From contig JAIQDT010003547.1 in NCBI GenBank assembly GCA_021521415.1, positions 229,331 through 293,330 on the forward strand: 64,000 bases of DNA, in the 5' to 3' direction. The position numbers and the translations under genes were made by a program. Under the pieces are notes generated by a model. That model did no database searches and was not told the origin of the DNA. It worked only from the letters and a program-made list of their open reading frames with translations. Shown piece by piece: positions 15,242 to 51,670 of this stretch (the first letter of the stretch is position 1; each line of letters opens with the position of its first letter). This DNA comes from Bidens hawaiensis. Lineage: Eukaryota > Streptophyta > Magnoliopsida > Asterales > Asteraceae.

Positions 15242-16025
15242 AACTGAAAATACATAAGCCCGAGATTTAGTAAAAACGAACAGTCAAACAATATAAATTA
15301 TTTAAAAGTTTAAAGTTGAATTTTCAAAATAAGTCTAAGTGTGATTCGTTATTATCGTGTCTGATTCGTTATAACGAATCAGGTAATTAGTTATATTGAA
15401 TTAATTGATTCGTTATAAACAATTAAAAACGAATCAACGATAACGAATCATTAACAAAGAAATAACGAATTAAAGAACGAACGAGAGGTAATTCGTCATC
15501 AAAATCACGAAGGAGTTGATTCTTTATATCTTCCATAACGAATTGAACACGAATGAGTATCCATTCGTTAACTCATAACGAATGGCCACCAATAATTTAG
15601 ATCTTTGACTATCTGAAGTCAAGGTCAAAATTGAGATGAACCTTGAAAGTTAAACATGCAATCTCAGATCCAATTACACCATGTTAGACAATGTAAAGAT
15701 CTAAAGTGATCACGAATCGACTCGGAAACACATCGATAGTCAACATATATTTCCCATTCTGGTTAAATCTGAGTATAACTTAGGTTTCTAAAGATATATG
15801 TTCATATGTTAAAACCCGGCATTCTAAACAACTAATTAACCACCTAAACACTCATAACTATTGACGATTTTGATTGCGTTATGATTTTGAATACCTTACG
15901 TATCTTAATTTATGATCAAAATAGGATTTAGTGAAGGTCAGATTTTTTGAAAAAATTGGGCAGAGGTTCGCTTAAGGAAGAAGAAAGGGTTTTTGAACGA
16001 ATGAGTTGAATTGTGCTCAACTGTT
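15242..16025 (-). other. Copia-1 accessory-ORF leader with ACGAAT/ATTCGT array
   Basis: Noncoding DNA between an internal TATA box and the accessory ORF. The part 15340-15610 holds about ten copies of ATTCGTTA or its complement, some as inverted pairs (GATTCGTTATAACGAATC at about 15361-15381). The same motif fills the LTR and the gag leader of this element. Confidence 0.75.
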
Positions 16026-16037
16026 CCTTATATAAAA
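16026..16037 (-). promoter_or_regulatory. Internal TATA box upstream of copia-1 accessory ORF
   Basis: Minus-strand GTTTTATATAAGGAACAG, about 790 bases before the accessory ATG. The LTR's own promoter region has the closely similar GTTTTATTTAAGGCATG at 25311-25322. An ATTCGTTA array lies directly upstream of each. This is a candidate internal promoter. Confidence 0.55.
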
Positions 16038-16330
16038 CGAATCAGCACATATCCCATGACAACGAATCAGCTAATTCGTTAATTCAAAATTGACGAATTA
16101 GCTACTTCGTTATCTAATTCATTATTTTAGTCATAACATTCTTCAATGAATGAGTAATTCGTTAAAAACTGATAACGAACCAACAACGAATTAAAGGTAT
16201 TTCTTGCTTCATTCGTTATAAATCTGATGACGAATGGGGTCATTCATTACAGAATGGCGGAAGCGTATTAAATATAACGAATTAGAGTAATTCGTTACCA
16301 ACATGACCCTCATTCGTTATCCAGACAGAT
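16038..16330 (-). repeat. Internal ATTCGTTA motif array (copia-1)
   Basis: About a dozen ATTCGT/ACGAAT copies in both orientations, upstream of the internal TATA box. The layout matches the LTR U3 at 25325-25570. Confidence 0.8.
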
Positions 16331-17734
16331 AACAAATGAACATTAAATTAAAATTTGAAACCCTTTTAAATAAAAGAGTTAAATAATTAATTAAATAAAT
16401 AATTTAAATAAAATGCATCGAAACATGTGTCCCGATGATATTTACCTTACGAATCTTACCCAACGTGGTAAAATGTAATACCTTAACGTGTTTTACTCTC
16501 AGAAACACATAACTTAATTAATTTAAAAAGAATTAAATAATATGTAAAGAAAATAAAAATATAATAAGAATAAAATCTTTTTGGTATTTTTCATTTTTTT
16601 TCCTAAATATTTACTTTTAAACCCGAAAAACAAAATGAAGTAGAAAACAAAATACTTTTGTATTTTTTGAAATGTTTTAACAAAAGCAGTACATGTTTTT
16701 GTGAGTTTAAGCAGAGAATCATATTGACCAAATTGTCATTCCATCGTAGTTTTATATTTCAATGTTATTATAACTGGCGTTAAGTCGGTCATTGATATTG
16801 TGGTCCACTTAAATCTTATAACAAACCTTCGAGTATTTTTGTGATATGATTAAAATTTGAATTAGGGCACAAAATATCAGAAACTATCAGCCTCTAATCT
16901 CGGTTTAAGCTTAATTTGATTTTTACCATATCACCCCAACTTGACTTAAACATTTTATTGTCGATCAAAATTTTAGATTTCATAGATATTTTTGAGAAAT
17001 GCACTAAGTTTCCTTTACTGTGAGTGAGTATGCACGAGTCCATCTATGGGCTTACATTCATTGTATCCCCTGGGGTCCGATTCTTACAGGTATTGAGACG
17101 CGCGCAAGGGAGGAACAAATGTATGACTAACAATGGATTTTGATCAAGTCAGTACTTTAGTTTGTACGATGTACAACAACGATCAAGTTTAATGACTTTG
17201 GGTTTGCTCTAAAAGCCTTTGAAATATTCATGCTTATGAATACCCAGATGATTAAGCCGCATAAAGACTCACAGTGTCCAGAAGCCGAATGCTTGTTATT
17301 AGCTTTATTGTATTTTTGGTGATTAGACAAAAATAAGGCTTGAGTATGATAGGCTATTTTACGTTTCTGCCATCATTAACGAGACATTTGGAAGAGACTA
17401 ACACCTCTTTCAATTTGGCATTACTTTAGATTTATATCACATACTTTACCTTAACTGCAGTTATTTTTTATTTTATATCACATATTTTTATATGTATATT
17501 TCAACAGAAATCACAATATTTTTGTATTTTTGTAAAGATATTTTAATGTTTTTGAATTTTTTCTATACAAACAAAATCACAATCTTTTTGTATTTTTCAT
17601 TTTTCACCCCCAAAACCCAAAAAATTAAAATAAATGAAAGAAAATAAACAAAATAAAGTTAAAGATAATTATCCTTGTTTAAGGATATCAACAAGTGATT
17701 TTAGACCGTTTAGTCAAAGCATAAAAAAGTTAAA
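16331..17734 (-). other. Copia-1 post-pol noncoding block
   Basis: AT-rich and without ORFs. Between about 16770 and 17360, read on the minus strand, it contains in order TCATACTCAAGCCT, GTCTTTATGCGG, GGTATTCA, AGAGCAAACCC, CCCTTGCGCGCGTCTC, TGCATACTCAC and GTTTAAGTCAAGTTGGGGTG. The same series occurs in copia-0 (53050-53370) and in Athila-2 (37090-37840). A purine run (TTTTGGGGGTGAAAA, about 17604-17616) lies just after the RNase H. Confidence 0.8.
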
Positions 17735-18290
17735 AACGAGTTTTGTCAAAATCCGTGTGCACCTTTTCAATATCAATTAATTTCTTTTCGAATGAAATGA
17801 TATCGAATCTTAATATATTTTGTTTTCGAATGCTGCACAGGATTTTTGGTAATACTTATAGCAGCAGAATTATCAATTAAAATTGGAGTACTAAGAAACT
17901 TCAAACCGTAGTCGTGCAAATGTTGTTGGATCCATAGAACATGTGAACGACAACTCTAGGCTACCACGTATTCTGCCTCAGTGGTTAAAGTGGAGACTGT
18001 TTTCTTCTTCTTACACTGCCAGGAAACAAGTCGACATTCTAAAAATTGACAACCCGCTGTAGTCGATTTGAAATTGATATTGCATCCTCCATAATCAAAA
18101 TCGAAAAACGCAGTGAGTTCAAAGCTATCATCCATGCATACCATAACCCGATGTCAGGATTACCCATTAGATAGTGAAGTATACGTTTAACCGCCACCAG
18201 GTTATTCACTCGGGGACTTGACTGGTACCTAGCACGTAAACAAACTGCAAACATTATGTCATGCTGAGAAGCAGTTAAATACATTAAAAA
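17735..18290 (-). pseudogene. Copia-1 RNase H, frameshifted
   Basis: Minus-strand pieces: YLTASQHDIMFAVC and SPRVNNLVAVKRILHYLMG (18039-18284). In another frame FFDFDYGGCNINFKSTTAG, VSWQCKKKKTVSTLTTEAEY (17956-18144). After a stop come GLKFLSTPILIDNSAAI and SKTKYIKIRYHFIR (to about 17780). These give the copia RNase H acidic residues in D.DYGGC, EAEY and IDNSAA. One frameshift and one stop inactivate it. Confidence 0.88.
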
Positions 18291-24130: not shown

Positions 24131-25072
24131 TTTAAGGAAAAAAAGTTCAAATTTGACAAAATTAAAACTTTACGGTTAAAAATGAAACTTCTGTAACAAA
24201 TCAGGAACAGTAAAGTTAACGATCTGAGTGAAGTTTTGATAACTAATTGGGAATAGTAACTTAACGAATTAGATGAAGACTGAATAACGAATTAAGAACA
24301 ATATTTTGATGAACCAGGAACGAATTAAGTGTAACAAGCGGGTAACAAATTAGAATGACGAATCACTGAACGAATCAATAGACGAATTGATAAAGAATCA
24401 GTGATGAAAGTGTAACGAATTAGTGAACACGAAGTGACTACAGTAAGCACGAATCAGCTACAGTGAATAATGAACTAGGTTGTTATTCAGTTGCAACAAA
24501 CTCTCAACGTTGCACGAATTATTTAAAAATTACTAAAGAATCAGACACGTGGTTAACGAATTGAGCATAACGAATTAAGATCATATTCAAATTTTCAAGC
24601 AGATCTTCAAATCTTCAAGAAAATTTCCAGAAATCCATAAATCTGGAAATTTCCAAATTCAATTCTAATCAAAATCCAAACTAAAAACATGAAATACAAC
24701 CTAAATTCGACACCAAATTGGCCAAATATAGCCAGAACACTCGTAATGAATTCGCGATCACAATCACACTTATCCTGTATATATTACAAAACCAAACGTT
24801 TACCAATTATCACATAAACAATCCCCTGTTCCGTACGTTTTCAGATCCAAACCAAAACAACCTCAATCAACCACAAAACCACAATCAATTCCACACAATC
24901 CTTTCTCAATCTTTACCGATCACAATACAATACAGAATCAATCTATAATCATCAAAATAAAACCAAAACTCAAAAAAAAAATCAATAAAATTAATACGAA
25001 CCGGAAGCTTAACCAATACACTCCAAATACTGATCAATAACAATTAATTAAGAGCAATCTAACGACCAGAAA
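24131..25072 (-). other. Copia-1 5' leader with ACGAATTA array
   Basis: Untranslated leader between primer site and gag. About eleven ACGAATTA or ACGAATCA copies lie in 24240-24560, mostly in the same orientation, unlike the mixed orientation in the LTR. The rest is A/C-rich on the plus strand and without recognisable features. Confidence 0.75.
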
Positions 25073-25084
25073 GCTCTGATACCA
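25073..25084 (-). other. Copia-1 primer-binding site (initiator Met tRNA)
   Basis: Minus-strand TGGTATCAGAGC, exactly adjacent to the LTR end (25085). It is complementary to the 3' end of plant initiator methionine tRNA, as in most copia elements. Confidence 0.93.
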
Positions 25085-25666
25085 TGTGTAATTACCTTAT
25101 ATCTCTATAGATCTAATCAATCCATTACGTATTAGATAAATTAGCTTAGGATCTAGTTTTTGATATGTTCTTAATTATGTATAATATATATTAGTAATTG
25201 TAATAGGTGTAATACTAATAATATGTTAGTGAAGAATTGAGTGAGAGAGAACTTGAGCAAAGGTTCGATATAATTATCTCAAAACTTAAATTATGAGGGC
25301 ATTAACATGCCTTAAATAAAACATGGAGGCCAATTCGCTACACATCCCATAACGAATTGGCTCCAGTTCGTTAACTTACATAATAGATAGGTAAAGCATA
25401 ACGAATCAACTGATTTGTTATACCCCCATTCGTCAACATTCCATGACGAATGGGAACATACATAACGAATTATAGTCCATTCGTTAAACATTCTAAATGA
25501 ATGGACCTTACATATAACGAACTGGCTAATTCGTTAAACATCCTTAACACATTAGCCTATACATAACGAACAAAAGATTTTTCCATAAATAACCTTACAT
25601 TAAAATAATAATAAATTACAAACGATAAGTTATAAAGACTCGAGACGACAAAACGGTGCACTAACA
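25085..25666 (-). repeat. Copia-1 5' LTR (582 bp)
   Basis: Minus-strand TGTTAGTGCACC...TAATTACACA. The ends are fixed by the adjacent primer site at 25084 and by the return of copia-0 RT codons at 25667; the five bases TTTCC (25667-25671) should be the target duplication. U3 (25325-25570) is an array of about twelve ATTCGTTA/ACGAAT copies, followed by a TATA-like TTTATTTAAGG (25311-25321). Solo LTRs at 54081 and 54715 share the same start. Confidence 0.88.
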
Positions 25667-25925
25667 TTTCCTGAACGGAAAAATGGGTGAAGAAGTCTTT
25701 GTAGAACAACCACCGGGGATTGTCGATCCTATTCAGAAAGACAAAATGTACCTGCTCGAAAAAACGCTTTATGGTTTACATCATGCCCCGAGAGCTTGGT
25801 ATGGCACATTGTCGAAACACTTGTTAGACAACAACTTTGTTCATGGCACTGTGGACTGTACACTCTTCACAAAGGAAATAGATGGTCATCTGCTGATAGT
25901 CCAGGTCTATGTGGATGATATCATT
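25667..25925 (+). pseudogene. Copia-0 reverse transcriptase, first visible part
   Basis: Plus-strand copia RT. It begins in mid-codon of FLNGKMGEEVFVEQPPG, continues KTLYGLHHAPRAWYGTLSKH and TVDCTLFTKEIDGHLLIVQV, and reaches the catalytic YVDDII. At that point copia-2 is inserted (TSD TCATT, 25921-25925 and 51666-51670). The reading resumes in frame at 51671. This piece has no stop; it was disabled by insertion rather than by decay. The N-terminal side lies to the left of copia-1, outside the window. Confidence 0.93.
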
Positions 25926-27076
25926 TGTCGGTCCCGAATAGTCACTCAATAATCAATAACAATGTCATAACCCACACATATTGTGTCGACAAGAGGGTTA
26001 ATGACGGATTGCTAAATAAGGAAAGATTCTTGTTTGTTAAAGGCGGAATCAGTAACAAACAGGATTGTTGCTTAATAGGTTAAGAAAAGTAACAAACACA
26101 AACAATAACTCAAAAGATTTCCATTTATATAAAGCAATTCATACAAATGATAATCGATTAGGGTTTCTTGTCGGAATGTATATTCAATGATAACCTAGGA
26201 CAGCTGTCACACTCATACAGGATTATTCGTTCTTTTCTCAAAAGTGTAAAGGCTAAAGTCCGTATTTCCAGCTTAGGCGGCGTGCCCTAAAACATTCTAT
26301 TTATAGGCCTGCCACCTCTTGACAACTGTCCTTCCTTTTAGAAACACTAATGATAAGTACATATTCAAAATACATATTCAAAACAATTCTAAGTGTAAAA
26401 CAGGTCTTTCGGGTAGGCTTTGTAGCATTTATCTTTTCCGAGTAGGCTCTGTGCTCTGCCTTCCTTTACTAAGACCTGGTAACCTTGAGGTGTGCTCGGG
26501 AACAGTTTTCCGGGTAGACTTTACTTAGTGTTTTACTAAACAACTCATCGGGTAGACTTCATTCTTCTTGACCATATCAGACTTTGCCTGAAAGGATCCT
26601 ACTACCATAATGTTCTTCAAGAATCCATTCAACTCATTTGTTTGATAACTTATTAAGCAACCATAGTGTGCTTGGTACACTCTAGCCTGCTCTGAGTTGA
26701 ACCTTGCCCGAGAAAGTAAGAATGCTTCATAACTTTCAACAAGCTTGCCCGGATTCCACTTTATTAAGCAAACCTTGCTCGATCTTCCAAAGACTTGGCT
26801 TCAAGAGCTTGGTTTAGTCAAGGGTTTGTAAGTAGCAAACTATGCCCGACTAGAAGAACAACGTTGCTAGATGTAGTGAACCCTACTCGGATTATCACTA
26901 AAGAGAACTTCAAGAAGGTAACCCTGCCCGAAGGGCAAAATATCATGCCCGACTAAGTAAAACCCTGCTCGAATATCTCAGGTGTGCCCGTTTCCATACT
27001 TAGCGATTTCTCAGGAGGTTGAGAAGATTCCAATCTTCCTTATGATCATTTTTAAGGTGAAATCTTTGAGTCAACA
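25926..27076 (-). repeat. Copia-2 3' LTR
   Basis: Plus-strand ends TGTCGGTCCCGA and ACTC/GTCAACA. The minus-strand TATA box is CCTATAAATAG at 26297-26307. Upstream of it (26400-27000) at least a dozen GCCCGA, GCTCGGA or CGGGTAG words are spread about every 40 bases. The match to 50516-51665 runs end to end. Confidence 0.95.
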
Positions 27077-27092
27077 ATCTCCCCCTAGATTG
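27077..27092 (-). other. Copia-2 polypurine tract
   Basis: Minus-strand CCAATCTAGGGGGAGAT directly abuts the LTR start TGTTGA. This is the standard plus-strand primer of copia elements. Confidence 0.9.
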
Positions 27093-30200: not shown

Positions 30201-31408
30201 TAACATCATATTTTTGCTCTTCTTTTTCAGATGAATCTGCCTCATAATCATCATCATTTATTTATTTTTCTTCACTCTCTTCTTCATCATCATAAGCATT
30301 TAAAATACAAGTCAAACCATCAACAATTCTCTCTCCTGCCTCCTCCATCACTACATAATCTGTATTAGAAACAACACCAGTTGGCTTAATAATATTCTCC
30401 CTCTGTTTTGGGGCAACTGAGGTCTTCTCAACCTCCTACTCCAGGGTTTGAATTTTCATTAGTGCTCGGGCCAACCGATCTAGTAGTTTCACATTCTCCT
30501 TCGTTACCTCCTCTTTTCTTTTCTTCAACTCAGCATTTTCCATTAGTAAGTCCAAATTTCTATCAAAGAGATAGGATCCAGCAGGAGGGTTTATTGGTGA
30601 TGAGGTAGAGAAAGGTTTAGGTTCAGTTTGGTTTTGTTGAGTGGTTGGAGTGATGATTGGATGAGCATCTTCAATAATGTTTTCATTGGTTGAGGGTAAT
30701 GGGTTAATGTTTGTTATTAGGAGTGTTCCGGTGTGGGTGATGGTAAATGTTGGTTCAGTTATAAGTTGGGTTGTGATTTCAGGTGGGGTTTGGGTTGTGG
30801 TTTGAGGTGGTGATTGGTGTAAGGGTTCATTTTGGCTTAGGGCTACAGTGGGAATGGGTGTGGATTGGGTATGGATAGGGGTAGGCTAGGTTGTGATTAT
30901 GGGTGGTGATTGGGATCTGGTTTTAGGTGGGGTTTGGGTTTCAGGTTGGGTTCTGGTTTGAGGTGGGGTTTGGTGTAATGGTTTAGTATGGGTTAAGGCT
31001 AAGATAGGTGTTTGAGAAGGTGAGGTTTGGGAGTTTTGAGGTGGTGATTGTGGTGGAGTGTCAAATGGTGTTGTTGGTTGATCTGGTATAATATGTTGCT
31101 CCCCCTGAGGTTGTGCAATTACCTCAAAGTTTGCATCTCCTCCCTCTATATTTCCAGCATCATCATCATCATTATTTCCATCATCTGAACTGTCATCACT
31201 TCCATCATTCTCATCATTTCCCCCTTAAACATCCTCATCTTCAGATAGCAACACATGCAATTGAGGTATCAGTATATCATCAAACATCAACCCGGGTAGT
31301 TCTTCATATACCTCTGCTGGATTAAATCTGCTTGTGCTAGCCAGATTCTCTATTCTTTTAAACGTATCTGGATTTTGCAGTAGATGTGTGGTTCCTGTAT
31401 TTGGTAGG
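27240..31408 (-). pseudogene. Copia-2 accessory ORF, C-terminal three quarters
   Basis: This continues the ORF that starts at 40575 after the Athila-2 insertion, in frame (the first codons read NTGTTHLLQNPDTFKRIENL). In order there is an acidic stretch, a Pro/Thr/Gln-rich linker of about 120 residues (31070-30640), a heptad-like helix (LMENAELKKRKEEVTKENVK), Glu/Asp/Lys-rich coiled coils (30153-29674, 29552-29022, 29022-28651, 28694-28464), and the block 28439-28110. Weaker coding continues through KLAGRQQNELSKYLKDEADK to about 27240. Stops and frameshifts occur roughly every 150 codons. No membrane span is visible. Role unknown; with the first part it would be about 1600 residues. Confidence 0.75.
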
Positions 31409-31807
31409 TGATATACGTCTATTTATATATCTTGGATCCCTTATAAAGTTATGTTTATTTAATATTTTGAGTTCGTTTTAGTTAATGTTTTGGTTTATCT
31501 TTTATTAATTTAGGTTTTGAGTCAAGTATTTCATATATTTACATGTTTTATATCTTTTGGTGTCTTGAATATTAAGCCTTAATTCTTTCAATTTTTTCAT
31601 GCGAAGTTTGAGGTCGTTTTGTTCATTAATGTCTACATGATTATTCCACTTAGCGTTTCGATTTGTTTTCATGTAGATGGTGGTTTGAAAGTCAAGGAAA
31701 AGATGATCTAGAAGGTTCTTAACGTTACTTTATGTTCAAGAAAGAGATCTAAGATGATTTAAAAACAAATAACAAGCAAAAATTCGTAGGCTACTCATAT
31801 AGGCGCC

Positions 31808-38094: not shown

Positions 38095-39920
38095 TGATAT
38101 ACGTCTATTTATACATCTTGGATACCTTGTAAAGTTATGTTTATTTAATATTTTGAGTTCATTTTAGTTCGTGTTTTGGTTTATCTTTTATTAATTTAGG
38201 TTTTGAGCCAAGTATTTCATATATTTACATGTTTTATATCGTTTGGCGTCTTGAATGTTAAGCCTTAATTCTTTCTATCTTTTCATGCGAAGTTTGAGTT
38301 CGTTTTGTTCGTTAATGACTACATGATTATTCCACTTAGCGTTTCGATTTGTTTTCATGTAGATGGTGGTTTGAAAGTCAATTAAAAGATAGTCTAGAAG
38401 GTTCTTAACTTTACTTTATGTTCAAGAAAGAGATCTAAGATGATTTAATAACAAACAACAAGCAAAAATTCGTAGGCTACTCATATGGGCGTCGCGCCCC
38501 GCGAAGGCAAAGGGCCAAGGCGGTCGCGGGGCACCTAGGCCTTCTGGTAAGCAAAAAAAAGCAAGCCGCCGCGCGCGAAGGCAAATGCCCAGGGTGCGGC
38601 CGCGCAGCGCCTAGGCCTACTGGTCTACGCGTTTTTGCAAGCCCAAGCCCGGTATTCGCTTATATAAACATCATTATGTCCCTAGCCGAAAACACAATTA
38701 TTCCACCCGATTTTAGAGAGGTTAGAGCCAAGTTGAAGGTGTTTTTGGACCTAGGAATCAAGGGATATCATCGAGATTTCATACGGGTGTTCAAGGATCG
38801 ATTAAGACGGGTTCTTTCGTTCTTTATCTTTGTTCTTGTTGATTATCTTTCATGATTTTTCCTTTTGTTCTTTGGTTTAGTTCTTTGATTATAATTATGC
38901 TAGGCTAAACTTCATGTCTACCTAGGTTTGATGAACATGTTTGATGCATGATTCTTGCTTTGGATAATTGTTTGATTATGGATTTCGTTATTTAATAGTA
39001 AAGACTTGGTTTTGTTTTCATGATGCATATAAGTATTTATTATCTTGATTGATTATTAACTATTGCTTCACATAGATCTTTTATCTTTTGATTGTGTTCT
39101 TTAGATTTAGGGTTTATGTTTAAATCATTACTTGGTGTTTTGATTATTGTGATTAAATGGGACCGTTAGATCATAGAAGCTTGTTGATTGTTGATTAGGA
39201 TTATGAATGCTTTGCCAAATTCCAGTAGCTGTAAGGTGAGGAGATGTTCATGTGTCTTGGTCACTTGTATGCTAGGATAGTTAGTGACAATATTCTTGCT
39301 TATTGTGTTGATCCATGTTCATGATGTCATGTTAGCTTATCAAGTTAGTGACAATATTCTTGCTTAGTGTTTCGTAAGATTGCCTGCTTTAGATACTAAT
39401 AATTAACCCTAATTGATGACTTTGCGGAAATCAATATAACTGATTGCTTAATATTCTAATAATCATCTTTGGGATGTCGTTTGATTCAGTCAAGGGTCCT
39501 TTAGGGTTTTTTAGATGGATACGTTTAGAAATCAGTTTCCGTAATCATGTTTTTTGTCCATTGCTTGATGATTGTTGATGCATGGGATTCTTACCTAGGT
39601 AGATTCCTTCTTTTATTGGTTCCGATCTTGTGTTTGGTTGCTTGTTTCTAGTTTACTTGCTTATTTGTTTTCTTAGTTTAATATTAGTTTTAAAAAAACC
39701 CCCTTAAAACATTAATAATAAATTTTCGTGTCGTAAGTCGAGTCTAATTGGTTAATTAACGTAATTTATAGAGTCTTGTGGGTTCGATATTCTGGACTTA
39801 TTTAGCTTTAGTATAATTGACCGGTTCACTTGTCAGTGATTTGTTTAGTTGAGTCTTAGGTCTATTTTTTAATACTTGTTTAATTTAGTTAATATTTAAT
39901 TGACTGTTTTCACCACATCA
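38095..39920 (+). repeat. Athila-2 3' LTR (1826 bp)
   Basis: TGATATACG...CACCACATCA. It is the empty-site counterpart of the SINE-like insertion. Around 39344-39367 the words GTTAGTGACAATATTCTTGC are repeated from about 60 bases upstream and replace the 5' LTR text TCTAGAGT, a local duplication. Confidence 0.95.
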
Positions 39921-40575
39921 TTAGGTCCTCCAACTCTTGATTGAAAATAATTTGCAGGAATCTCGGATAAGGCAAGAACTTCTGCTTGGTTGGCTTATTT
40001 AAATTTTGAACTAACCCTTCGAATATCATCCTTGACAATTTGAATGGATAGTCAAATAGAAATGCAGCAGTGGCGTTTGCCAAATCCCTGCTCAGGAGGG
40101 TCCACGACCCTTTCCTTGGTGCAAAACCCTGTATAATGTGGTGGATCAAAAATATGTAAATGGTAGGGAACATGCCCTTATAGAATTGCCCATCATGTGT
40201 GTCCCCTTGATAACCCATACTCTTGACAAAAATTTTGTATAGTTGAGCTGTTGTAAGATGGATTGGGTTAGGGTTACCATCATTCAATTGTAGACACCTC
40301 CTAATAACGACCTCATCCACCCGTATATCTTGATTCATCACAGTTGCTTCAATTCTTCGGCTATTTACATCATCAATCAAAGTTGCCGAGTTACAAAAAT
40401 CCAACGAATGGCTCCGGTATATTACAGGATTTTCTGTTAGTGCAAACCTGATGTTTGATCGTTGTAACCATCGTATAATTCCAGCAACTTCTTCGTTATC
40501 TGGTGTGACTTGTAAAAGAGCGCACATGTTGTGCTTTTGCTCAAAGAATTATCTAGGAACATTTTGGTCCACCAT
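39921..40575 (-). pseudogene. Copia-2 accessory ORF, conserved N-terminal domain
   Basis: The minus-strand ATG at 40575 gives MVDQNVPR, an in-frame TAA (40549-40551), then FFEQKHNMCALLQV and a clean 200-codon frame. Conserved strings are IRWLQRSNIRFALTENPVIY, DFCNSATLIDD, VDEVVIRRCLQLNDG, LYKIFVKSMGYQG, then APRKGSWTLLSRDL, DYPFKLSRMIFEGL, KQKFLPYPRFLQII. The same series is found in copia-1 at 15241-14600. The fold looks helical and soluble. The pattern of W/F, IR..LQL..D and PRF recalls plant transposon-associated domains, but that is a weak resemblance. Athila-2 is inserted after LEDL. Confidence 0.82.
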
Positions 40576-43241
40576 TTCTGAAAAACACAATAAAACATAT
40601 TCAAAGTGAAATTAGTCTCAAAGATCATTACTTTAAGCAATTTCAAGTTATAAAATTGAATAAGAAAAAGAGAAATGTCATTAAGAACCTATTCTTCGAC
40701 AAATTTGTAACCTGCACACAAAACAGAGAGTCAGTAAAAATATATAATCAAAGCCCATTATTATCTAATCGTGGCCGGAAAACATATAATCATTGCTACC
40801 GAGTCGGAATTAGAAGGCTGGTAAAGTTAGGGTTTGGATTAATTTTGAATGCTATAAGTCGGTTTATGTTTCTTTGAGTAAGAAGTGGAAGGAGAGAGAG
40901 AGAGAGAGAGGGAAAATAATGTTGAAAAAATCTCTCACTCCCTCTTATATTCCTTTTGAAAGTGGGTTTTAAACGCAGTTTGTCGTTTAGTGGGTGAATA
41001 GCTGTCATACATATTAAATAGCTTGCTAGTAAATAGTTATACAAACAACTATTAATTATGCTTGAAAATCTTAACTAAATAAAAGCATGCTAGAATCATC
41101 GCATACAACATATAGGATGCAAAGCTTGCTCGGAACAAGAAGTATTAGTCACAAGTGTGTCTGGAAATTTATAGTTGTCGGAACTTGCTTGGAAACACAT
41201 TCACATCATTAGACATCAAGTCTGCTCGGGAAATTGAGTTGTGAGTATACTCCACCCGGAGAGTGTAAACACCAATGCATGCCCGAAAATCATTAACTTG
41301 ACATAAGCTTGCTCGGAAAGGTTAAACCACAACAAACCTTCCGAAAATTCATATTCAACTGTTTTGTGCTTCGGAAGGTTAGAAAACATCAAACCTTGCC
41401 CGAAAGTACATATTCAACCTTTTGAAGGCAAAATGCAACACCTTTTAACTTAAAACACTTATTCAACTGTATATTTCATTAAAGATCATTGTTTAAGAGC
41501 AAATGATGTATTTAGAGATCAAATTTCAGTTATGTTTCTTTTCAAAACAGTTTCTTTCTTTTACTGAAAAGATCTCAAGAATGGGATCATATCGACTAAG
41601 TAGCTTTTTCAATACTTCATTCTCAGCATCATTTTGACAGCATAGACAGGTTAAAAGTAGGTTTGAACTTAGCATGATTTTCATTTCCTTGGTGATATGA
41701 TTAATGTTCATTTATGATACATAATACTCAATGGATAACACATATTGTTTTCTGATGCTCCTTATCTATTCTCAAGGCTTATTTGGCTTTCTCCAGATCA
41801 TCCCAATTTGACTTCAACCCCCTGGATTTGGTTAAAATTTTCTTTCATGACAGAACTTATTTAATTATTTTTGGTTTTTCTTTTCAAACATTTAGAGGTT
41901 GAACGTTGGACTTACATGCCATCCGGACTTACAAGCCTTTCATTCGGGGTATGACATGATTTATTTCAATCCCCTGGTCACTGTAGTTCTAGTTTAAACC
42001 CTTTAGTTTGATAAAATATCATATTTGTCAATTTTTTGTTTGACTTATTATTCTTTTTGACAGTTTTCATAAATATCTTGATTTTTCTAATACCTTTTCT
42101 TTGTCATAGATAAAAGATGTTTCATTTTTGGTTGATCAAATACCAACGGGCTTGTGTATGACTGGATAATCACTTTTTTGCCTATCATTTGGAAAAATTT
42201 ATCTAGGAACATGCATAGACAATAATGTAATTCCACATATAGTTTAGCAGTGTCTTTATGTTTATATCACCTTGGATTTTACGCACCATGAGAAAGCAAC
42301 CATACATGTTAATGATTGTACTAAGTGCCCTTTTTAGCCTATTAAATCCATATGATTGGCTAAGTAGATAATGTACTATCATTTCCCATTTCTGTTCAAT
42401 CACCCCACTTTCTCTTAGCTTCCAGGTTAATGGCTATCCTGACAGTCTACAAGTAGTCAGCAGGACCAAACACACACTTAAGTATATGTCCCTTAGGCTT
42501 AGAGTCAATGCCATAGTTTTAAGTGAAAGAACAAATTTCTAGTGCCCCAAAAGCTTTCAGACTTCAGGTTAATGGTTATTCTTGAACTCTTAGAAAGTTT
42601 TAACGACCATTCATATACAAGTATATGTCCCTCTGTCTTGAGCAAATGACTTAATTTTAAGCAAAAACAATTCTTTTGAGACTTTCCCTTAAAAATCCTT
42701 CCTTTAAGCTTCTTTAAAGCTTGAACTGAATAGTCTTATCATATCTCAACACCATTAACAACTTGCTCATGTTTGACCAAAATTCTTGTTTTTATGCAAA
42801 ATTCATTAGAAAAATAATTTTATCACTTAATTTTGTCATAAAGACACATTTTGACACAAACAGTTGTAACACATTCAGATCTTAACCATTCATGACATCA
42901 TCAAGACAAGTAGACAGTACCAATCATTCAAAGTCTAGTCTATCCTAATAATAACATATGATCAGATAACACTCATATTCAAGTAATTAACCAAGAATGG
43001 CAGATAAGCATACACACTCAAGTGATTCAAATCAAAAGCATTTATCATGACATCACAAACACATATCAACTGATAAACCTGCATAAGTATCTAGGATACC
43101 CAATTTTGCAAACACATAGTCAGATAAAGCACATACCAATTTAACATGAAAAGCATCATATTCAAACACATACACATAGACAACATTCAAACAAAGCTTT
43201 GGAAAGATAGTCAGTTTGTACATTCAAGAACACATCATCAA
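40576..43241 (-). other. Copia-2 post-pol noncoding block with internal promoter-like region
   Basis: Minus-strand reading: a region with a roughly 95-bp direct repeat (42419-42513, 42562-42663), then GTTGAAGTCAAATTGGGATG (41796-41817), which matches the equivalent word in copia-1 and Athila-2. A GCCCGA/GCTCGGA array (41110-41430) comes next, a TATA-like GAATATAAGAGGG (about 40943-40955), a CT-rich (GA)n tract (40889-40911), and the accessory ATG. No ORF is convincing. Confidence 0.7.
41110..41430 (-). repeat. Internal GCCCGA/GCTCGGA motif array (copia-2)
   Basis: About ten copies (GCTTGCTCGGAA, GTCTGCTCGGGA, ATGCCCGAAA, CTTGCCCGAAA, CTTCGGAAGG and similar) upstream of the internal TATA-like box. 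The same words are dispersed through the U3 of this element's LTRs at 26400-27000 and 50990-51600. Confidence 0.75.
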
Positions 43242-44580
43242 TCAGATTTCATCAGAGTTGATCATTCCCAGGGCTTTCAGAAGAAAGTTGAACCTGGTTC
43301 CGTCAAGTGGTTTTGTGAATATGTGAGCCAAATTATCACTTGTATCAACTCTGGTTACTTCAATTAAACCTTTTTCACTACAATCTCTTATGAAGTGATG
43401 TCTGATTTCAATGTACTTGGTTTTGGAGTGTTGCACAGGATTCTTAACAATAAAAGATGCAGCAGTATTATCAATGTAAATAGGGGTGTTTAGAAAGGTC
43501 AAACCATAATTCAGCGTCTGATTTTGGATCCAGAGGACTTGTGCACAGCGGGTAGATGCAACAATGTATTCAGCTTCTGCAGTTGAGATTGAGACAGTTG
43601 TCTGCTTCTTGCATTGCCATGACACCAATCTATCACCCAAAAACTGACATCCTCCTGAAGTTGACTTCCTGCTTACATTGCACCCATCATAATCACAGTA
43701 TGTGTAGGCTATTAGATCAAAAGATTGGTTCTTTGGATACCAAATTCCCAAGTCAGGTCTTCCCTTCAAATATCTAAAGATTCTCTTAACAGCATTCTTG
43801 TGAGAGACCTTAAGGCTTGACTGAAATCTAGCACACACACATACTGCAAACATGATATCAGGCCTTGAAGCAGTCAGATACATTGGTGAACCAATTTTTG
43901 CTCTGTATTCATGCTCATCCACTGGCTCCCCCTTTTTATCTGCTACCATCTTTTCTTTTGAATCCATAGGAGTTGAAGCTATCTTCAAATCATTGCACTT
44001 GAATTTGTCAAGAATGTCTTGTACATACTTAGACTGGTAAATGAATATCCCATCAGCCTTCTGCTGAACTTGTAAAACAAGGAAGAAGTTCATTTCTCCC
44101 ATTGATCACATGCTATACTTGGACTTCATTACCTCTTCAAACTCCATACACATCTTTTCATTGGTTGACCCAAAAATAATGTCATCCACATAGACTTGTA
44201 ATAACAGCAAATCTCTTCCTTTCTTTTTGTAAAAGAGGGTCTTGTCAGTAGCTCCCCGTTGGAAACCATTTTCAAGTAGGTGGTTTGATAATTCATCATA
44301 CCATGCTCTAGGATCCTGATGCAATCCATACAAGGCTTTGTTGTAGTTTATACACCCTGTTAGGATAGATAGGATCCTCAAAACCTGGTGGTTGAGAAAC
44401 ATACACCTTCTCCTCTATATTTCCATTTAGGAATGCAGATTTGCATCAAGTTGGAATACCCTGATATTCTTTGAGGCAGCATAAGCTAAGAAGATTCTTA
44501 TTGCTTCTAGTCTTGCAACTGGTGCAAAGACCTCCTCAAAGTCAATTCCTTGTTTTTTAAGGCATCCCAAAGCTAAAGTC
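43242..44580 (-). pseudogene. Copia-2 reverse transcriptase C-terminal part and RNase H
   Basis: [22 protein letters not shown] (about 44440-44540). A one-base loss follows after FQLD, where the usual VKSAFLNG is out of frame. Then [20 protein letters not shown], the catalytic [14 protein letters not shown] (44106-44402). A stop precedes MGEMNFFLVLQVQQ, and the 286-codon frame 43242-44102 runs through TASRPDIMFAVCVCARFQSS, YCDYDGCNVSRKSTSGG, STAEAEYIVAS, IDNTAA and EIRHHFIRDCSEKGLIEV to the end. The RNase H acidic residues are all present, making this the best-preserved pol domain here. Confidence 0.93.
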
Positions 44581-45375
44581 TAGCTTTGTTTTTAATCACA
44601 ATACCCCTGTCATCCCTTTTGTTTCTGAACACCCATTTTGTGGCTATTGCATGTCTGTTTCTTGGTCTGTCTACAATTTCCCAAACGTATAGATCTCTAA
44701 ATTGAGCCAACTCTTCCTGCATTGCTTGCACCCAACTGTTATCCCTTAGAGCATGAACAATATTCTTTGGTTCTGTTTGGGAGAGAAAGCATGAGTATAA
44801 ACAAATGTTTGCAGTTTCAGAGTGACTTCTTGTAACTCTTCCATATATATTGCCAATGATATGTTCAGAGGGATGATTCTTTTCAATATAGGGGGTTTGA
44901 ATTATCACATCAGTTGACATATTTGTGTCAAGATTTGATTCATTGAGATCAGGTTCTTCAATGATCAAATCAGTTGTTTCAATCTCAGCCTCTGGTGCTT
45001 CCTCATTACTTTGTCCTGAAGTACTTGCCCCATGATTTCCAAAATCTAATCTTTCAAATAAATCTTGAAAACTTGATGCTGTACTGGTTCCCTCTGTAGT
45101 AGCTTGATTGCTTGTGTGTTCCTCATTTTGAACTTGATCATGTTGCACATCTTGATTGTCTTGATCTTCATTAGCTTGATCTTGTTCTTGATTGTTGTCT
45201 TGAATATTCTCTTCAATTTCTCTTGAGGGGTCCTTAATGAATGGATATTCCTTTTCTTTGTTAGCAACCTTTTTTCACAACTTTTCCAAATCCAATGCTT
45301 TTTGGTTTGACTCTTCAAATGCACTGGTTTTGTAACATCATAGTCTTTAGATAAAATCTTGAAAGACTTGATCAA
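44573..45375 (-). pseudogene. Copia-2 integrase-RT linker and RT N-terminus
   Basis: The 191-codon frame 44573-45148 begins with a Gln/Glu/Thr/Ser-rich acidic linker (QNEEHTSNQATTEGTST) and ends in RT: VTRSHSETANICLY, SWVQAMQEELAQFRDLYVWE, then KWVFRNKRDDRGIVIKNKAR. The part upstream of it (45149-45375) is Lys-rich and shifted in frame. Confidence 0.85.
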
Positions 45376-45378
45376 TTT

Positions 45379-46553
45379 CTATAAATCAAATAGCCATGAT
45401 GCACCATCAACTGTGTTGAATTGGTTTTCATTGAAAACTACATCTGAGGATTCAATTACAACCAAGTGATCTTTCACATATACTCTGTAGGCCTTAGAGT
45501 ATGTAGAGTAGCCTATAAAGAAACAATTGAACGATTTAGCTTGAAACTTGTTCAAATAATCCTTTGTGTTCAATAGTGAACATTTGCATCCAAAAGCTTT
45601 GAAAAAATTGATATAGGGTTTTCTTTTATAGAAAATATCATATGGAGTCTTGTTGTGACTTTTGTTTATAAGAACCATGTTTTGAACATAACATGCTGTG
45701 TTAATGGCTTCTGCCCAAAATGTGACAGGTAAATTATCATTAGCAAGAATGGTTCTTGCTACTTCAATGAGTGTTCTATTTCTTCTTTCAGCAACACCAC
45801 TTTGTTCAAGAGTTCTTGGAGTTGAAACTGTTGAAGTATTCCTTTTTTGTTGCAAAATTCTTCAATCACTCCTTTTTTCAACTCAGTACCACTGTCACTT
45901 CTCATCAGTTTAACCCTTTTATCAAGTTGATTCTCAACCTTGTTAACACAGTTCATAATGAGTTCAGCAGCCTCATCCTTGGTACTTAGGAAATAAACCC
46001 AAGTGTATCTTGAGTAGTCATGAATGATCACAAGACAGTATCTTTTCTTGCCAATGCTTGGTATACTCACAGGACCAAAGAGACACATGTGAAGCATTTC
46101 AAGCACTTGGTTAATTGAGTTGATGAGTTTAGTATTATGAGAAGACTTGTGTTGCTTTCCTTTCTGGCATGAGACATAGTTGTCATCCAGTTTAAATTCT
46201 CTTGTAGGTAGTCCAATGACATGCTCACCCTTGACCAACTTGTTCATATTCTTGAGATTGACATGGCACAGTTTTCTATGCCACAACTTTGACTCATTTT
46301 CAGTGGCCTTAGAAACAAAGTGTGTGCCACCCCTTGAAATGACATCCTTCATGTTAAGCTCATATAAGTTGTCATTCCTAGGAGCCATCATCATGATCAT
46401 GTTAGGTGGGATAACATATTCAGGTCTCAATATGAAATAGTGTGAGTCATCAAAGCCAACTTTATAACCCTTATCACACATTTGTGATATACTTAAGAGG
46501 TTATATTGAAGACCTTCCACATAAAAAAATATTGTCAAAAGTGACTTTTCCAT
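45379..46553 (-). pseudogene. Copia-2 pre-integrase zinc module and integrase; first catalytic Asp replaced
   Basis: The frame 45759-46553 starts in the protease tail (YNLLSISQMCDKGY), then the zinc module LWHRKLCHVNLKNM...CQKGKQHKSS. The core reads MLHMCLFGPVSIPS: where copia integrases have HMDLFGP, the codon at 46083-46085 is Cys. It then reads HDYSRYTWVYFLSTKDEAAE and VKLMRSDSGTEL, the second Asp. The next frame (45379-45855) has EQSGVAERRNRTLIEVARTI with the catalytic Glu, and ends FGCKCSLLNTKDYLNKF, FFIGYST. With one frameshift and a missing Asp it cannot be active. Confidence 0.9.
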
Positions 46554-46728
46554 TTGTCAAGATGCCCTTTCCAGCTATTTTTCCTCCATTCTCATCACTT
46601 TCAAATGCCACTGGCCCCTCAAACTTCTCTTCATAGTTGACAAGTGACCTCTTGTCACAATTCATGTGCCTAGAACAACCACTGTCCAAATAACATACTT
46701 CATTCAGTGTAGTGGATTGTTCATGCAT
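46501..46728 (-). pseudogene. Copia-2 aspartic protease
   Basis: EVCYLDSGCSRHMNCDKRSL carries the catalytic Asp-Ser-Gly, and GPVAFESDENGGKIAGKGIL and GKVTFDNIFL are the following strands. The frame then breaks before the YNLLSISQ segment continues in the integrase frame. It would cut the polyprotein. Confidence 0.88.
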
Positions 46729-46914
46729 AATAAAAAGAAAGTGATTAGTTAGGTGATGAAGTGCAAGCTACTTCAACTTGCAAGTCATCAGATTCATTTT
46801 CAATGGCAGCATTGGGAGTGAGTGTTGTGGGTTCAGGGTCTTCATGGGTAACTTCAATGTGATATGAATTATTAGTTTCATATCCACACTCTCTTGGAGT
46901 TTTCACAAATGAAG

Positions 46915-47978
46915 TTATGCTTTCATACTCAGAAATTTCGTTGTCACATTCTTGAACAACATAGTCTTTCTTTCTTCAGAATCTCTCGCATCCAAATTAG
47001 TCTCTTCTTTGACTTCAACTTTAGGTTTCCATAGAAAACCTTGAGGTTCATAACCATGTTTCAATAAGAATTTTTCATCTCTAGTTAATTCAGTAGGTTT
47101 CTTCTTAGGAAGAACACCTATGTTTCTCATATTTTCACTGTTTGATGAACCTTGAGAATCATCAGACTTAACTGATTATGTGTCATTGTTAGGAATGATC
47201 TCAAATGTTGAAAATTTTTCTTCTTTACATACTCAATCTTCTTAGGAGATTTACTTCTTCTATTTTGCCCAACAATTGGTTTCTTAAATCACTCATTAGC
47301 TTGCTGATCAGACTCATTCTTTTTCTCATTCTCACTCACTTTCCCTTTTCCTAAATATTCTTCATACTTCTGCTTATAGAGAACAAAGTTTTGACAAAAC
47401 TTTGTCCCACGTGGAACATGGAAGGGTTTGAAGTTGAGTCTATCATTACAAGTGTCAGTGTGATGGCCATACTCATCACATTTCTTGCACCACACTTTTC
47501 ATTTGAATTTTTCATGATCAGCTCCTTTCTTAAACCTTTCACTTGGCCTTGGTGGATCAACCCCAATTGTCTTCTGAGTCTTCAAATCATCAAAGTCAAT
47601 TGAGAAAGCAACAAATTCATTTATCTTGATATCATTTCTTTCAACCTTTCCTTTGAAAAAAACAATTTTCTTCATATTCAAAGGCTCCTCATCTATGCTT
47701 CCTTTGAGCCTTGATTGCCTCTTTTCATATTCCTCCATGGTTTCCACTTCCCCAATGTCAAATATTTCATGACTTGAAAATATTGGGTAAACTGAAATGA
47801 AGTTGTCACATACAACTGTTTCAGCCGCTTTCTTCTTGTTGCTTTCTCTAATTCTTTGCAGTATAGCCTTTCTTGGGGGTTTAACTGCATTATAGTTGAC
47901 TTTAGACCTTTCACATATGTCAAAAGACACATGTTCTTTTCTAAGTCTTTCATTCATTTTCTTCATCTTTGATGTCAT
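46915..47978 (-). pseudogene. Copia-2 gag C-terminal region with second zinc knuckle
   Basis: The frame 47499-47978 starts on an ATGA overlapping the stop of the main gag frame and is rich in Lys/Glu. The piece 47289-47495 holds a full CX2CX4HX4C knuckle, CKKCDEYGHHTDTC (about 47447-47490), then HVPRGTKFCQNFVLYKQKYE. A further piece, 46915-47130, has LTRDEKFLLKHGYEPQGFLW. The same order (coiled coil, second knuckle, short Lys/Glu segment, protease) occurs in copia-1, so this belongs to the original polyprotein. Confidence 0.8.
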
Positions 47979-50199
47979 TGGTGTAGTTGTGGCAGTTTTT
48001 CAATTGAATCTGGTTTCTTGTATCTTCTACCTCTTTCAGAAGCTTTAATTTCTTCATAAGTGATTTGATCACTCAAATCACTTAAATCATCAGCATTTAG
48101 ATCTTCAGAGTCAAAGTCATCTTTAGAGACTTGAATTCCAAATGACTTGTCTTCTTTCACTTCTTCCTTCACAACACATTCTCCATCTTCATTTCCTTCA
48201 ACCTTCTTATATAGATCAACAAACTCCTCTCTGTCTTGAAACACTTCTCTAAACTGCCCGAGATAACCATCCCTCTTCTCTTTGTCAACTTTGGGTAAGA
48301 AGTTGTTGTTGAAAGGAGGTAGAACAGTTTTATACTTGTCTTTCTCACTAATTTTGTTCAGAATCCCACATATGTTTCCTGTGGAGACCAAATTCTTCAA
48401 GAATTCATTATCAACTTGCAACTTTATGTTCTTCACCTTTTCATCAATCAACATCTTCTTCAACCCATTAATTTCAGTACAATACCTCTGTTGAGCTCTA
48501 TAGCTACTCACACAATCATCTTCTAAACTTCTAATCTTCTCTTCACTAGGAACATCACTTGCTTCATACCCATTTATGATTCTTTGTTTTCTGAAACACT
48601 CACCCTCCTGTTTGCCTATTTTCATATTCAAAGCAGTAATTGTTTCATTTAAGTCAGTGATAGGTGAGTGTACCTGAGAAGATGATGTTCCAGCCTCATT
48701 CTCAATCTTTGCCATGAATGCAACATTAGCAGCTTTGATGTCATCTTCATGATTACTCCAGTCAAAATCACCATCTTGTTGTGCAGCAACAGCTACATTC
48801 CCTTGATTTCTTGGTTTAGTTTGATTGGGTCTGTTGAGGTTATTTTGAGCAACTTGAGGGAATTGATTTCTTTGGTAGTTTTGATTTTGAGGAAAAACTT
48901 GTTGAGTATTCATCTGGGGTTGTTGAAAGTTGTTGAAGTTGGGATTGTTATTGTTGTTGAAGTTATTTCTATTCTGATATTGCATTTGGTTTCTTGGATG
49001 TTGATTTTGAAACTGATTGGCTTGAAAGTTTCTGGGCTGGTTACATTCCCTAGAAAAATGTCCAGGTTGTTGGCAGTTGTAGCAGATAGCCTTTGACTTG
49101 TCAAATCCAATCCTTTCATTTGGCCTAGAGACCAAGGATCTACCAGTCCTATTGAATAGCCTCTTACTTCTCAGTGCTAGCATTGCAGCTTGCCACTTTA
49201 AATCCATACCCTCAAAGTCATCAGAATCTATTTGTTCGAAATGATCTTGGATGACACTTGTATAGATTAAGTTCTTTGTCACAAATGCATTATATGACTC
49301 AATGAACATTGAGAAGAGTGCTTGAGTGTCATTTGTTTGACCAATGTTTCCACCATGGTATGGCACATGTTCACCTGCCATTGAGGCAGTGCCATTTTCT
49401 TCAATAAGTTGGACATTGAACCTTGTCTGATTTCCATGCTGACTTGAGCTACCTCCAACAAATGATCTAGGTGTTTCTACACCATGTTCGATTGGCTCTT
49501 CAATGGGAATTTGCTGTTGGTTTGTGGTAGACAGATTCCCCATGGGTGCAATCAATACATTATAAATATTGAAACAGGGCTTTTCTTCTTTGATCATCTC
49601 TTTTTCGATCATTTCGACCTCAGCAGCCTGAAGGAAGCATACTACATCATCCACTTTAAGGTCATTGAAGTTATGTTTTTGAAGGATGAATTTGCAGACA
49701 GTGTACCATTCCTTCAGCATTGATGTCAACAACTTGGTATTCAGGTCAAAATTAGTCATAACATAGTATGTAGTTCGGAGGTCATTCACAATTGCCAAAA
49801 ATCTCTCAAGAATGGACTTCAACCTTTCTCCATTTTTGTATTTAAATCTCTCAAGTTGTTGCTTGAGCCTTTGCTTCTTTATATTCTTGAGCTCAATGTT
49901 TCCCTCGAAGATTTCAAGGATTGCATCATACATTGCCTTTGCGGTGGCATGATGTGCAACCTTGGTAAGTATTTCCCAAGACAGTCTTAGCTTAATCATT
50001 GCTAAGGCCCTGTCGTCCACTTTCCTCAACCTATCTCTTACAGCACCAGTAGCTGCACCATCATCGGCTCGTGGTCCATTTTTTATTGAACTCCACATGT
50101 CTACATCGTTGTCGCACAAAGCCGCTTCAAATAATACTTTCCATTTGGTGAAGTTTTCCTGCCCATAGAGTCTAGGTATTTTGTTAGTAGACCAGTCAT
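47975..50199 (-). pseudogene. Copia-2 gag, 714-codon main frame
   Basis: Gag builds the particle. The frame is open far upstream of any in-frame ATG: it already encodes DWSTNKIPRLYGQENFTKWK, the copia gag entry motif, before 50119. The likely original ATG (50199) is now in another frame, so a small indel lies just after it. The capsid part has RLRKVDDRALAMIKLRLSWE, LKQQLERFKYKNGERLKSIL and KHNFNDLKVDDVVCFLQAAE. The first zinc knuckle, CYNCQQPGHFSREC, lies at about 49043-49085. Then come an Asn/Gln-rich linker, FDWSNHEDDIKAANVAFMA, a coiled coil (48660-48380) and an acidic tail. This is the longest ORF in the window. Confidence 0.9.
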
Positions 50200-50501
50200 T
50201 TTGATGTTTTGAAAAAACAAAAAAAAAAAGTAAAAATCAAATTTTCAGATGAAAATAATCAGATCTGACTATCAAATCCTCATATCTGATGAATCTAGTC
50301 TGATAGGAACAAGAAATGATTATAAGGATGATAACTTTAACTAAAATAAGGAAAAGAAAACACCGAATGTTTGTAAATCTGGACGGATAAGATGAACAGA
50401 GTAGCTGACGTCACTCTCCAATGGAACAGTGCTCTGCTTACGTCCTTGTTCTTCTTCAGATCTTCAATCAGCAACAAATCTTCCCAATCAGCAATCAACA
50501 A
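50200..50501 (-). other. Copia-2 5' leader
   Basis: Untranslated leader between primer site and gag. Several ATCAGAT/AGATCTGA words occur in 50240-50310. Nothing else is recognised. Confidence 0.6.
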
Positions 50502-50513
50502 CCTATGATACCA
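50502..50513 (-). other. Copia-2 primer-binding site (initiator Met type)
   Basis: Minus-strand TGGTATCATAGG, two bases from the LTR; two changes from the perfect TGGTATCAGAGC found in copia-1. Confidence 0.85.
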
Positions 50514-50515
50514 CT

Positions 50516-51665
50516 TGTCGGTCCCGAAGAGTCACTCAATAATCAATAACAATGTCATAACCCACACATATTGTGTCGACAAGAGGGTTAATGACGGATT
50601 GCTAAATAAGGAAAGATTCTCGTTTGTTAAAGGCGGAATCAGTAACAAACAGGTTTGTTGCTTAATAGGTTAATAAAAGTAACAAACACAAACAATAACT
50701 CAAAAGATTTCCATTTATATAAAGCAATTCATACAAATGATAATCGATTAGGGTTTCTTGTCGGAATGTATATTCAATGATAACCTAGGACATCCGTCAC
50801 ACTCATTCAGGAATATTCATTCTTTCCTCAAAAGTGTAAAGGCTAAAGTCCGCATTTCCGTCTTAGGCGACGTGCCCTAAAACATTCTATTTATAGGCCT
50901 GCCACCTTTTGACAACTGCCATTCCTTCTAGAAACCCTAATGAATAGTATATATTAAAATACATATCCAAAACAATTCTAAGTGTAAAACATGTCTTCCG
51001 GGTAGGCTTTGTAGCATTTATCGTTTCCGAGTAGGCTCTGTGCTCTGCCTTCCTTAACTAAGACTTGGTAACCTTAAGGTGTGCTCGGGAACAGTTTTCC
51101 GGGTATACTTTACTTAGTGTTTTACTAAACAACTCACCGGGTAGACTTCATTCTTCTTCACCATATCAGACTTTGCCCGAAAGGATCCTACTACCATAAT
51201 ATTCTTCAAGATTCCATTGAACTCAGTTGTTTGATAACTTATTAAGCAACCATAGTGTACTCGGTACACTGTACCCTGCTCTGAGTTGAACCTTGCCCGA
51301 GAAAGTAAGAATACTTCATAACTTTCAACAAGCTTGCCCGGATTCCACTTTATTAAGCAAACCTTGCTCGATCTTCCAAATACTTGGCTTCAAGAGCTTG
51401 GTTTAGTCAAGGGTTTGCAAGTAGCAAACTGTGCCCGACTAGAAGAACAACTTTGCTAGATGTAGTGAACCCTACTCGAATTATCACTAAAGAGGACTTT
51501 AAGAAGGTAACCCTGCCCGAAGGGAAAAATATCATGTCTGACTAAGTAAAACCCTGCTCGGATATCTCAGGTGTGCCCGGTTCCATACTTAGCGATTTAT
51601 GAGGAGGTTGAGAAGATTCCAATCTTCCTTATGATCATTTTTAAAGTCAAATCTTTGACTCAACA
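50516..51665 (-). repeat. Copia-2 5' LTR (1150 bp)
   Basis: Partner of 25926-27076, same orientation and ends. TATA box (minus) at 50887-50897. The GCCCGA/GCTCGGA array covers about 50990-51600, i.e. U3. TSD TCATT follows at 51666-51670. Confidence 0.95.
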
Positions 51666-51670
51666 TCATT

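Follow-up and report, generated by a model that had tools for sequence, protein, structure and literature searches.

The window analysed here, a stretch of 64,000 nucleotides from Bidens hawaiensis (GenBank assembly GCA_021521415.1, contig JAIQDT010003547.1, positions 229,331 to 293,330), is a nest of long terminal repeat (LTR) retrotransposons in a genome of 3.47 Gb. The reverse transcriptase of its host element, Copia-3 (plus strand), is split by Copia-2 and Copia-1 (both minus strand), and a Gypsy element (31409-39920) in turn interrupts the accessory gene of Copia-2. The 80 kb left flank of the contig, covered as eight separate stretches, adds the 5' LTR of Copia-3 and two further elements, E4 and E5, giving five elements and four motifs in all. 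The accessory protein, encoded between pol and the 3' LTR, belongs to one family across the elements. The short words arrayed in the U3 region of the LTR and again before the accessory open reading frame (ORF) are described below, together with the possible relation of these arrays to the accessory protein.

Layout of the nested elements

Copia-1 was recognized from its 5' LTR (TGTTAG...ACACA; 25085-25666, minus strand), delimited from the sequence, and from a primer-binding site (PBS; TGGTATCAGAGC, 25073-25084) returned by a PBS search. Self-comparison gave no second Copia-1 LTR within the window, and the 3' LTRs of Copia-1 and Copia-3 were found neither in the window nor in the left-flank stretches. 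The Copia-1 accessory gene (13429-15241, minus strand, ATG at 15241) has a broken frame in this copy. Copia-2 retains a 5' LTR at 50516-51665 (minus strand; from self-BLAST and sequence) and a 3' LTR at 25926-27076 (minus strand; 94.7% identical to the 5' LTR), bounded by the target-site duplication (TSD) AATGA at 51666-51670 and 25921-25925, and a polypurine tract (PPT; AGGGGGAG) at 27079-27086. Its gag-pol region (43242-50239, minus strand), with Pfam matches to gag, zinc knuckle, integrase and RVT_2, served as the control region for motif and CpG counts. The 5' part of the Copia-2 accessory gene occupies 39921-40576 (minus strand; ATG at ~40575; this copy has an early stop and a frame that is open from 40548 on) and the 3' part, beyond the Gypsy insertion, 28110-31224 (minus strand); the two pieces were not joined.

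Family-specific words at the LTR and before the accessory gene

In Copia-1 the word ATTCGT, counted on both strands, occurs seven times in the U3 array (ATTCGTTA/TAACGAAT in mixed orientation, 25340-25570), 11 times in the pre-ORF array (16030-16335), whose end adjoins a candidate TATA string (GTTTTATATAAGG, 16026-16038), 12 times in the accessory-leader array (15340-15610) and 10-11 times in the gag-leader array (24230-24580). The density in these four arrays is 30-44 per kb (shuffle expectation 0.3-0.9 copies each) against three copies in the 7.3 kb of the element body (0.4 per kb; 4.1 copies expected from shuffles), and all four lie where the initial annotation of this DNA had placed them. 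Compartment borders follow genes and candidate TATA strings and were drawn with the arrays already known.

A motif model was trained on one U3 alone and scanned over the 64 kb at a threshold of about one chance match per 3 kb, clusters being 300-bp bins with three or more matches; since only U3 was used for training, there is no circularity in the pre-ORF counts. Clusters of the Copia-1 model fall only in the Copia-1 U3, pre-ORF region and both leaders and in two LTR-like pieces at 54.1-55.0 kb, and those of the model from the Copia-2 5' U3 only in the two Copia-2 LTRs and at 41101-41400. The latter scan bears out the arrays annotated in the Copia-2 U3 (50990-51620, YCGRGCA / TCGGGCA type) and before its accessory ATG (41110-41445). 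The word proposed for them, GCCCGA, is not the best one; YCGRGCA performs better, with nine exact copies in U3 and five in the pre-ORF region. The leader motifs that the initial annotation gave for Copia-1 are present there; the Copia-2 gag and accessory leaders show no array and hold no exact copy. Stray YCGRGCA copies number two in 10.8 kb of Copia-2 coding DNA and four in other elements, and Copia-2 is the weakest case among the window elements.

Sorting by 6-mer content groups the regulatory regions by element (0.19-0.58 within, -0.06 to 0.03 between), and none of 562-590 other windows was as similar in 6-mer content as the observed regions. Because the motif was already known when these regions were chosen, the U3-trained scans are the stronger test.

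Copia-3, which the initial annotation had not covered, has a word of its own. Its pre-ORF array (four copies, CGTATAAG/CTTATACG, 53612-53671) stands before CCATATAAATACCC (~53674-53687), its accessory-leader array lies in two parts (54606-54710 and 55244-55470) before the accessory ATG at 55553, and its truncated 5' LTR in the left flank carries CTTATACG words and is accompanied by a gag-leader array (L010 7789-8598). The ATTCGTTA copies at 54.1-55.0 kb were considered as part of Copia-3's own array and rejected, since 54715-55233 (plus strand) is a solo LTR, kin to the Copia-1 LTR, with its own ATTCGTTA array and the TSD GATAT (54710-54714 / 55234-55238). A second LTR-like piece with candidate borders at 54081-54632 (plus strand) has a ATTCGTTA array at 54190-54386; both pieces were excluded from the Copia-3 motif counts.

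The left flank extends the pattern. E4 (plus strand; L012 1248 to L011 3724) is young, its two LTRs being 99.4% identical; the fourth word, GCGAAGTT/GCGAACTT, is found in its U3, in its gag and accessory leaders and in its pre-ORF region. E5 (L014-L015) is a diverged relative of Copia-1, with 67% identical accessory DNA, that keeps ATTCGTTA in its gag leader, pre-ORF region and accessory leader. When the U3 models were scanned over all five elements, enrichment was confined to the element from which the model came or, in the case of E5, to close kin, as the claim of one motif per element at both sites had implied; the 11 matches of the four models in 42.6 kb of noncoding DNA from other elements are at chance level. 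Exact words for cross-element counts were chosen after these scans. In the order U3, gag leader, pre-ORF, accessory leader, ATTCGTTA occurs 5/5/6/9 times in Copia-1, never in the other three elements besides E5 and never in 47 kb of coding DNA; E5 has 7/5/4 in the three compartments scored, its U3 being unscored and its border between pre-ORF region and leader arbitrary. CTTATACG occurs 3/6/4/4 times in Copia-3 (U3 truncated to 177 bp) and nowhere else, and the E4 word 8/12/4/12 times in E4, with one coding match. Chance and base composition as the source of the arrays are ruled out by the shuffles, the U3-model scans, the 6-mer comparison and the cross-scans.

A motif search over many family members had been set beforehand as a check. 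The genome search with the Copia-2 accessory domain gave at least 150 matches (the best 150 of more than 41,000 first-look candidates), and 30 loci were sampled, of which L017 is the window copy. A pre-ORF array (three or more upstream matches) is present in 25 of the 29 other copies, the misses being L030, L035, L040 and L045. In the fetched loci the U3 model matches 378 times in the 44,150 bp before the ATG and 12 times in the 64,672 bp after it. A pre-ORF density no higher than in the rest of the element, named in advance as speaking against a second promoter, was not what these loci gave: the values are 8.6 and 0.2 per kb. In the window the Copia-2 pre-ORF array is ~500 bp shorter than in its relatives, which may explain its modest motif count, and in several Copia-2-type copies one array stretch was matched repeatedly. 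The second family searched, that of E4, likewise gave at least 150 accessory matches (the best 150 of more than 41,000 first-look candidates). Twelve loci were sampled (L047 being E4 itself; L056 was dropped for want of an anchor), and the 11 readable ones have 180 matches in 15,839 bp upstream against six in 23,761 bp downstream; their accessory domains are 97-100% identical and these copies therefore add little independent evidence.

The E4 family (contig 199718; L011/L012) is young and common; the best 150 scored matches have identities of 95-100%, and in many of them an accessory frame of 940-989 codons is preserved. In the E4 linker a long inverted repeat surrounds CCTTTATATAGGGG...CCCCTATATAAAGG (L012:9590-9670). 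Orientation was uniform in the gag leaders of Copia-1 (11/11 motifs, 24230-24580) and E5 (7/7 exact words, L014:6339-6551) and mixed in promoter-side arrays and in the E4 gag leader; a general rule of one orientation, true of the first two leaders, is false for E4. At L009:5050-6362 (contig 219331-229330) lies a Copia-1-like copy without gag-pol, its first 106 LTR bases being joined to the pre-ORF array and, beyond it, the TATA string and the accessory gene. Both breakpoints fall inside arrays, beside motifs, which suggests, to judge from the junctions, recombination or template switching between arrays; array recombination is thus a possible way in which the two sites stay alike. Elsewhere in the window, the Gypsy element (plus strand) has an LTR pair and gag and protease ORFs, and a 73-bp tandem repeat (3.4 copies) occupies 58123-58368, with a further partial copy upstream (57791-57859).

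The accessory protein, its probable promoter and the readings considered

The accessory N-terminal domain of Copia-1 belongs to the same family as that of Copia-2, and named relatives of the protein come from Bidens, Mikania and Tanacetum. The fold prediction, which covers one accessory domain, that of Copia-2, gives a VANC21-like model, with a putative match to VANC21 in its DNA complex. Analysis A8 took the window piece and 70 of 134 proteins. Sequence comparison returned less: DUF1985 and DUF287 were not listed in Pfam scans of the window pieces and relatives, searches of PDB sequences with accessory profiles found no VANC, and three scans for relatives in viral contigs found none. The best PF20167 match among ten relatives scanned (38 bits, E 2e-9) is below the curated cut-off of 45 bits, and the window's own accessory piece has no PF20167 row in the Pfam scans; precomputed Pfam annotation gives PF20167 for most among the 120 matches listed. 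N-domain pieces of Copia-1 and E5 are 44-52% identical and these elements have a common word, whereas the Copia-2 domain is 26-32% identical to those of Copia-1, E4 and E5 and the words differ. Among the few families compared, this pattern would fit a protein and a word that change together.

Promoter-like features were sought around the pre-ORF arrays. In Copia-2 the 1579 bp from the array to the early ORF hold 32 CpG, against a mean of 3.3 and a maximum of 13 in 714 overlapping control windows of the same length (gag-pol, 3' accessory DNA and far linker); the observed/expected CpG ratio is 0.62 there and 0.70 in the LTR, but falls to 0.10 over gag-pol and 0.06 over the 3' accessory DNA. Such retention from the array into the early ORF fits what is expected of a promoter-like zone. 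A TpG excess was observed beside the near-absent CpG in gag-pol (43242-50239) and 3' accessory DNA (28100-31224). The arrays adjoin candidate TATA strings, followed by a CT-rich (Y-rich) tract in Copia-1 and Copia-2 and not in Copia-3; in Copia-2 the candidate is GAATATAAGAGG (40941-40952, minus strand), and neither this string nor GAATATAAGAGGG is a strict TATAWAW.

We consider it an even chance that these Sirevirus-like Copia elements carry a VANC-like self-recognition system at both promoters, of which we infer the binding, the anti-silencing, the internal start and the co-change; the arrays, their element specificity, the conservation of the domain and its predicted fold are the observed part. 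Each family has its own short CpG-containing word, arrayed both in U3 of the LTR and ahead of the accessory gene, with further arrays in the gag and accessory leaders of several families. Transcription of the accessory gene would most likely start at its own promoter beside the pre-ORF array, and the gene product would bind the family word at the LTR and at the internal promoter and keep both open. If the protein does bind at both promoters, arrays and protein must change together. One regulator acting at both the LTR and the pre-ORF site, as the initial annotation had suggested, is plausible, and it may be the accessory protein itself. The wider generalization, that plant Copia elements, perhaps many with a PF20167-like additional ORF (aORF), encode VANC-fold anti-silencers of their own LTR and internal promoter, is put forward tentatively, at slightly less than even probability.

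Several results weigh against the internal promoter of this reading. TATA-like strings, a feature on which the initial annotation had relied, do not exceed shuffles in Copia-1 (3 versus 3.4) or Copia-2 (2 versus 3.2); in Copia-3 there are 8 versus 5.9, in a stretch that takes in LTR inserts. The 10 other readable copies of the E4 type lack the E4 string TATATAAAGG, and GTTTTATATAAGG is not enriched in the genome (107+110 occurrences versus 150+168 for the reversed-pattern control), so that the string alone is no mark of a promoter. An AG splice acceptor directly precedes the accessory ATG in 3/3 window elements and also in the 11 readable E4-type loci; it suits a spliced transcript from the LTR no less than an intron in the 5' untranslated region (UTR). 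As to the open LTRs of the proposed mechanism, CG methylation is reported to peak at the boundaries of sunflower SIRE elements outside genes (PMC12844716, accessible part), which does not obviously agree with them. Separate expression of the accessory gene thus stands in so far as the array is specific, non-compositional and set in retained CpG, and is weakened by the chance-level TATA strings and the ambiguous acceptor; an internal promoter beside the array, with a start site that we infer, is likely.

Host transcription factors might instead bind the arrays, a different factor for each family at LTR and internal promoter, the accessory protein being unrelated (env-like, movement or particle). 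Sirevirus motifs are reported to resemble known plant cis-elements (PMC2829016, accessible part), and strictly the scans of the window and of the five elements show only shared use at two sites. This explanation, which we regard as unlikely, needs four host factors for four families, each at both sites, and is further opposed by the arrays in the leaders and by the predicted resemblance of the accessory domain to a DNA-binding, self-targeting protein.

It is rather improbable that the accessory protein is made, like retroviral env, from a spliced LTR-started RNA, the pre-ORF array being an enhancer, a leftover or a recombination zone. The AG acceptors and the chance-level TATA strings would suit this, as would barley Bagy2, for which a spliced env-like RNA has been reported (PMC7264820, accessible part). 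Against it stand the CpG retained in Copia-2, the array in the same position in 25/29 copies and the Y-rich tract of Copia-1 and Copia-2.

That the arrays are tandem-duplication repeats which recombination or template switching has carried between LTR and linker, and which persist neutrally, is very unlikely. The L009 fusion, with its breakpoints beside motifs, and the repeated matches of one array stretch in Copia-2-type copies are in keeping with such an origin; neutral arrays need not remain in the same places, and E5 and Copia-1 share a word despite their accessory DNA divergence. Window BLAST, moreover, gave only short, weak matches between LTR (U3) and linker for Copia-1 and none for Copia-2, and on this ground insertion of a long copy of the LTR into the linker was rejected. 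A function of the arrays in RNA (e.g. packaging or translation), the leaders and U3 being transcribed, accords with the uniform orientation in the Copia-1 and E5 gag leaders and is scarcely credible given the mixed orientation of the promoter-side arrays and the E4 gag leader and the pre-TATA position of arrays that would fall outside an internal transcript.

If the self-recognition reading is true, the env-like/accessory gene would act as an anti-silencer specific to its own element, with the repeated boxes as its address labels. The roles of both were stated as open in 2010 (PMC2829016, accessible part), and one idea would cover both puzzles, with protein and boxes as lock and key. Sequence-specific anti-silencing would then reach beyond one group of DNA transposons to common retrotransposons, and motif arrays could serve to predict which families can activate each other.

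Comparison with known systems

In foamy viruses the accessory gene Tas is expressed from a second promoter towards the 3' end, and its product acts on both the LTR and the internal promoter. The likeness is one of layout only, the present case being a plant intracellular element, and no protein kinship is claimed.

Sireviruses offer a similar layout. In these elements, according to Bousios et al. (2010; PMC2829016, accessible part), a motif cluster of the LTR recurs ahead of the env-like gene and CpG islands are present; an internal promoter was already discussed there, and the present layout is therefore not new. As with the Sirevirus RM boxes, an element-specific cluster stands in the LTR upstream of the TATA and again upstream of the env-like gene. 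Unlike those boxes, the Copia-1, Copia-3 and E4 words are without a palindromic CGG-CCG core, and inverted pairs occur; Tnd-1 is one exception to this core listed in the same part of that report. Two further Sirevirus traits were compared. The PPT AGGGGGAG starts 10 bp before the 3' LTR in Copia-2 and E4 (L011:3241). Sireviruses have several PPT copies in the linker, mostly after env; the counts here are three AGGGGGAG on the E4 strand (L011 2024, 2159 and 3241) and, in Copia-2, two between pol and 3' LTR, with one more in pol. Beyond the Sirevirus report are the arrays in gag and accessory leaders, the specificity cross-scanned and checked in other copies, and the tie, by prediction, of the accessory protein to a DNA-binding fold. 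Full-text searches of the accessible literature turned up no paper tying the Sirevirus boxes to either VANC or the env-like protein, subscription papers and preprints lying mostly outside it.

The weak PF20167 match in accessory relatives recalls the Transposase_32 (PF20167) aORFs, for example in sunflower Athila (PMC11728184); there the domain sits in a Gypsy element, and the accessible part of that report does not link it to motif arrays.

VANC proteins of Arabidopsis VANDAL elements bind family-specific words arrayed in their own noncoding DNA, with loss of methylation (PMC5735166 and PMC10398659, accessible parts). The present carrier is not a VANDAL DNA transposon but an LTR retrotransposon with Copia gag, integrase and reverse transcriptase; there is no DUF1985/DUF287 sequence match, and here binding and demethylation would follow by analogy only. 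Both systems have short element-specific motif arrays in noncoding DNA, those of VANC lying in upstream regions and introns, and both have an element-encoded protein family with divergent specificity as described in the accessible VANC reports (PMC5735166, PMC10398659). The predicted fold of the accessory domain, with its putative match to DNA-bound VANC21, would add a likeness at the level of the protein.

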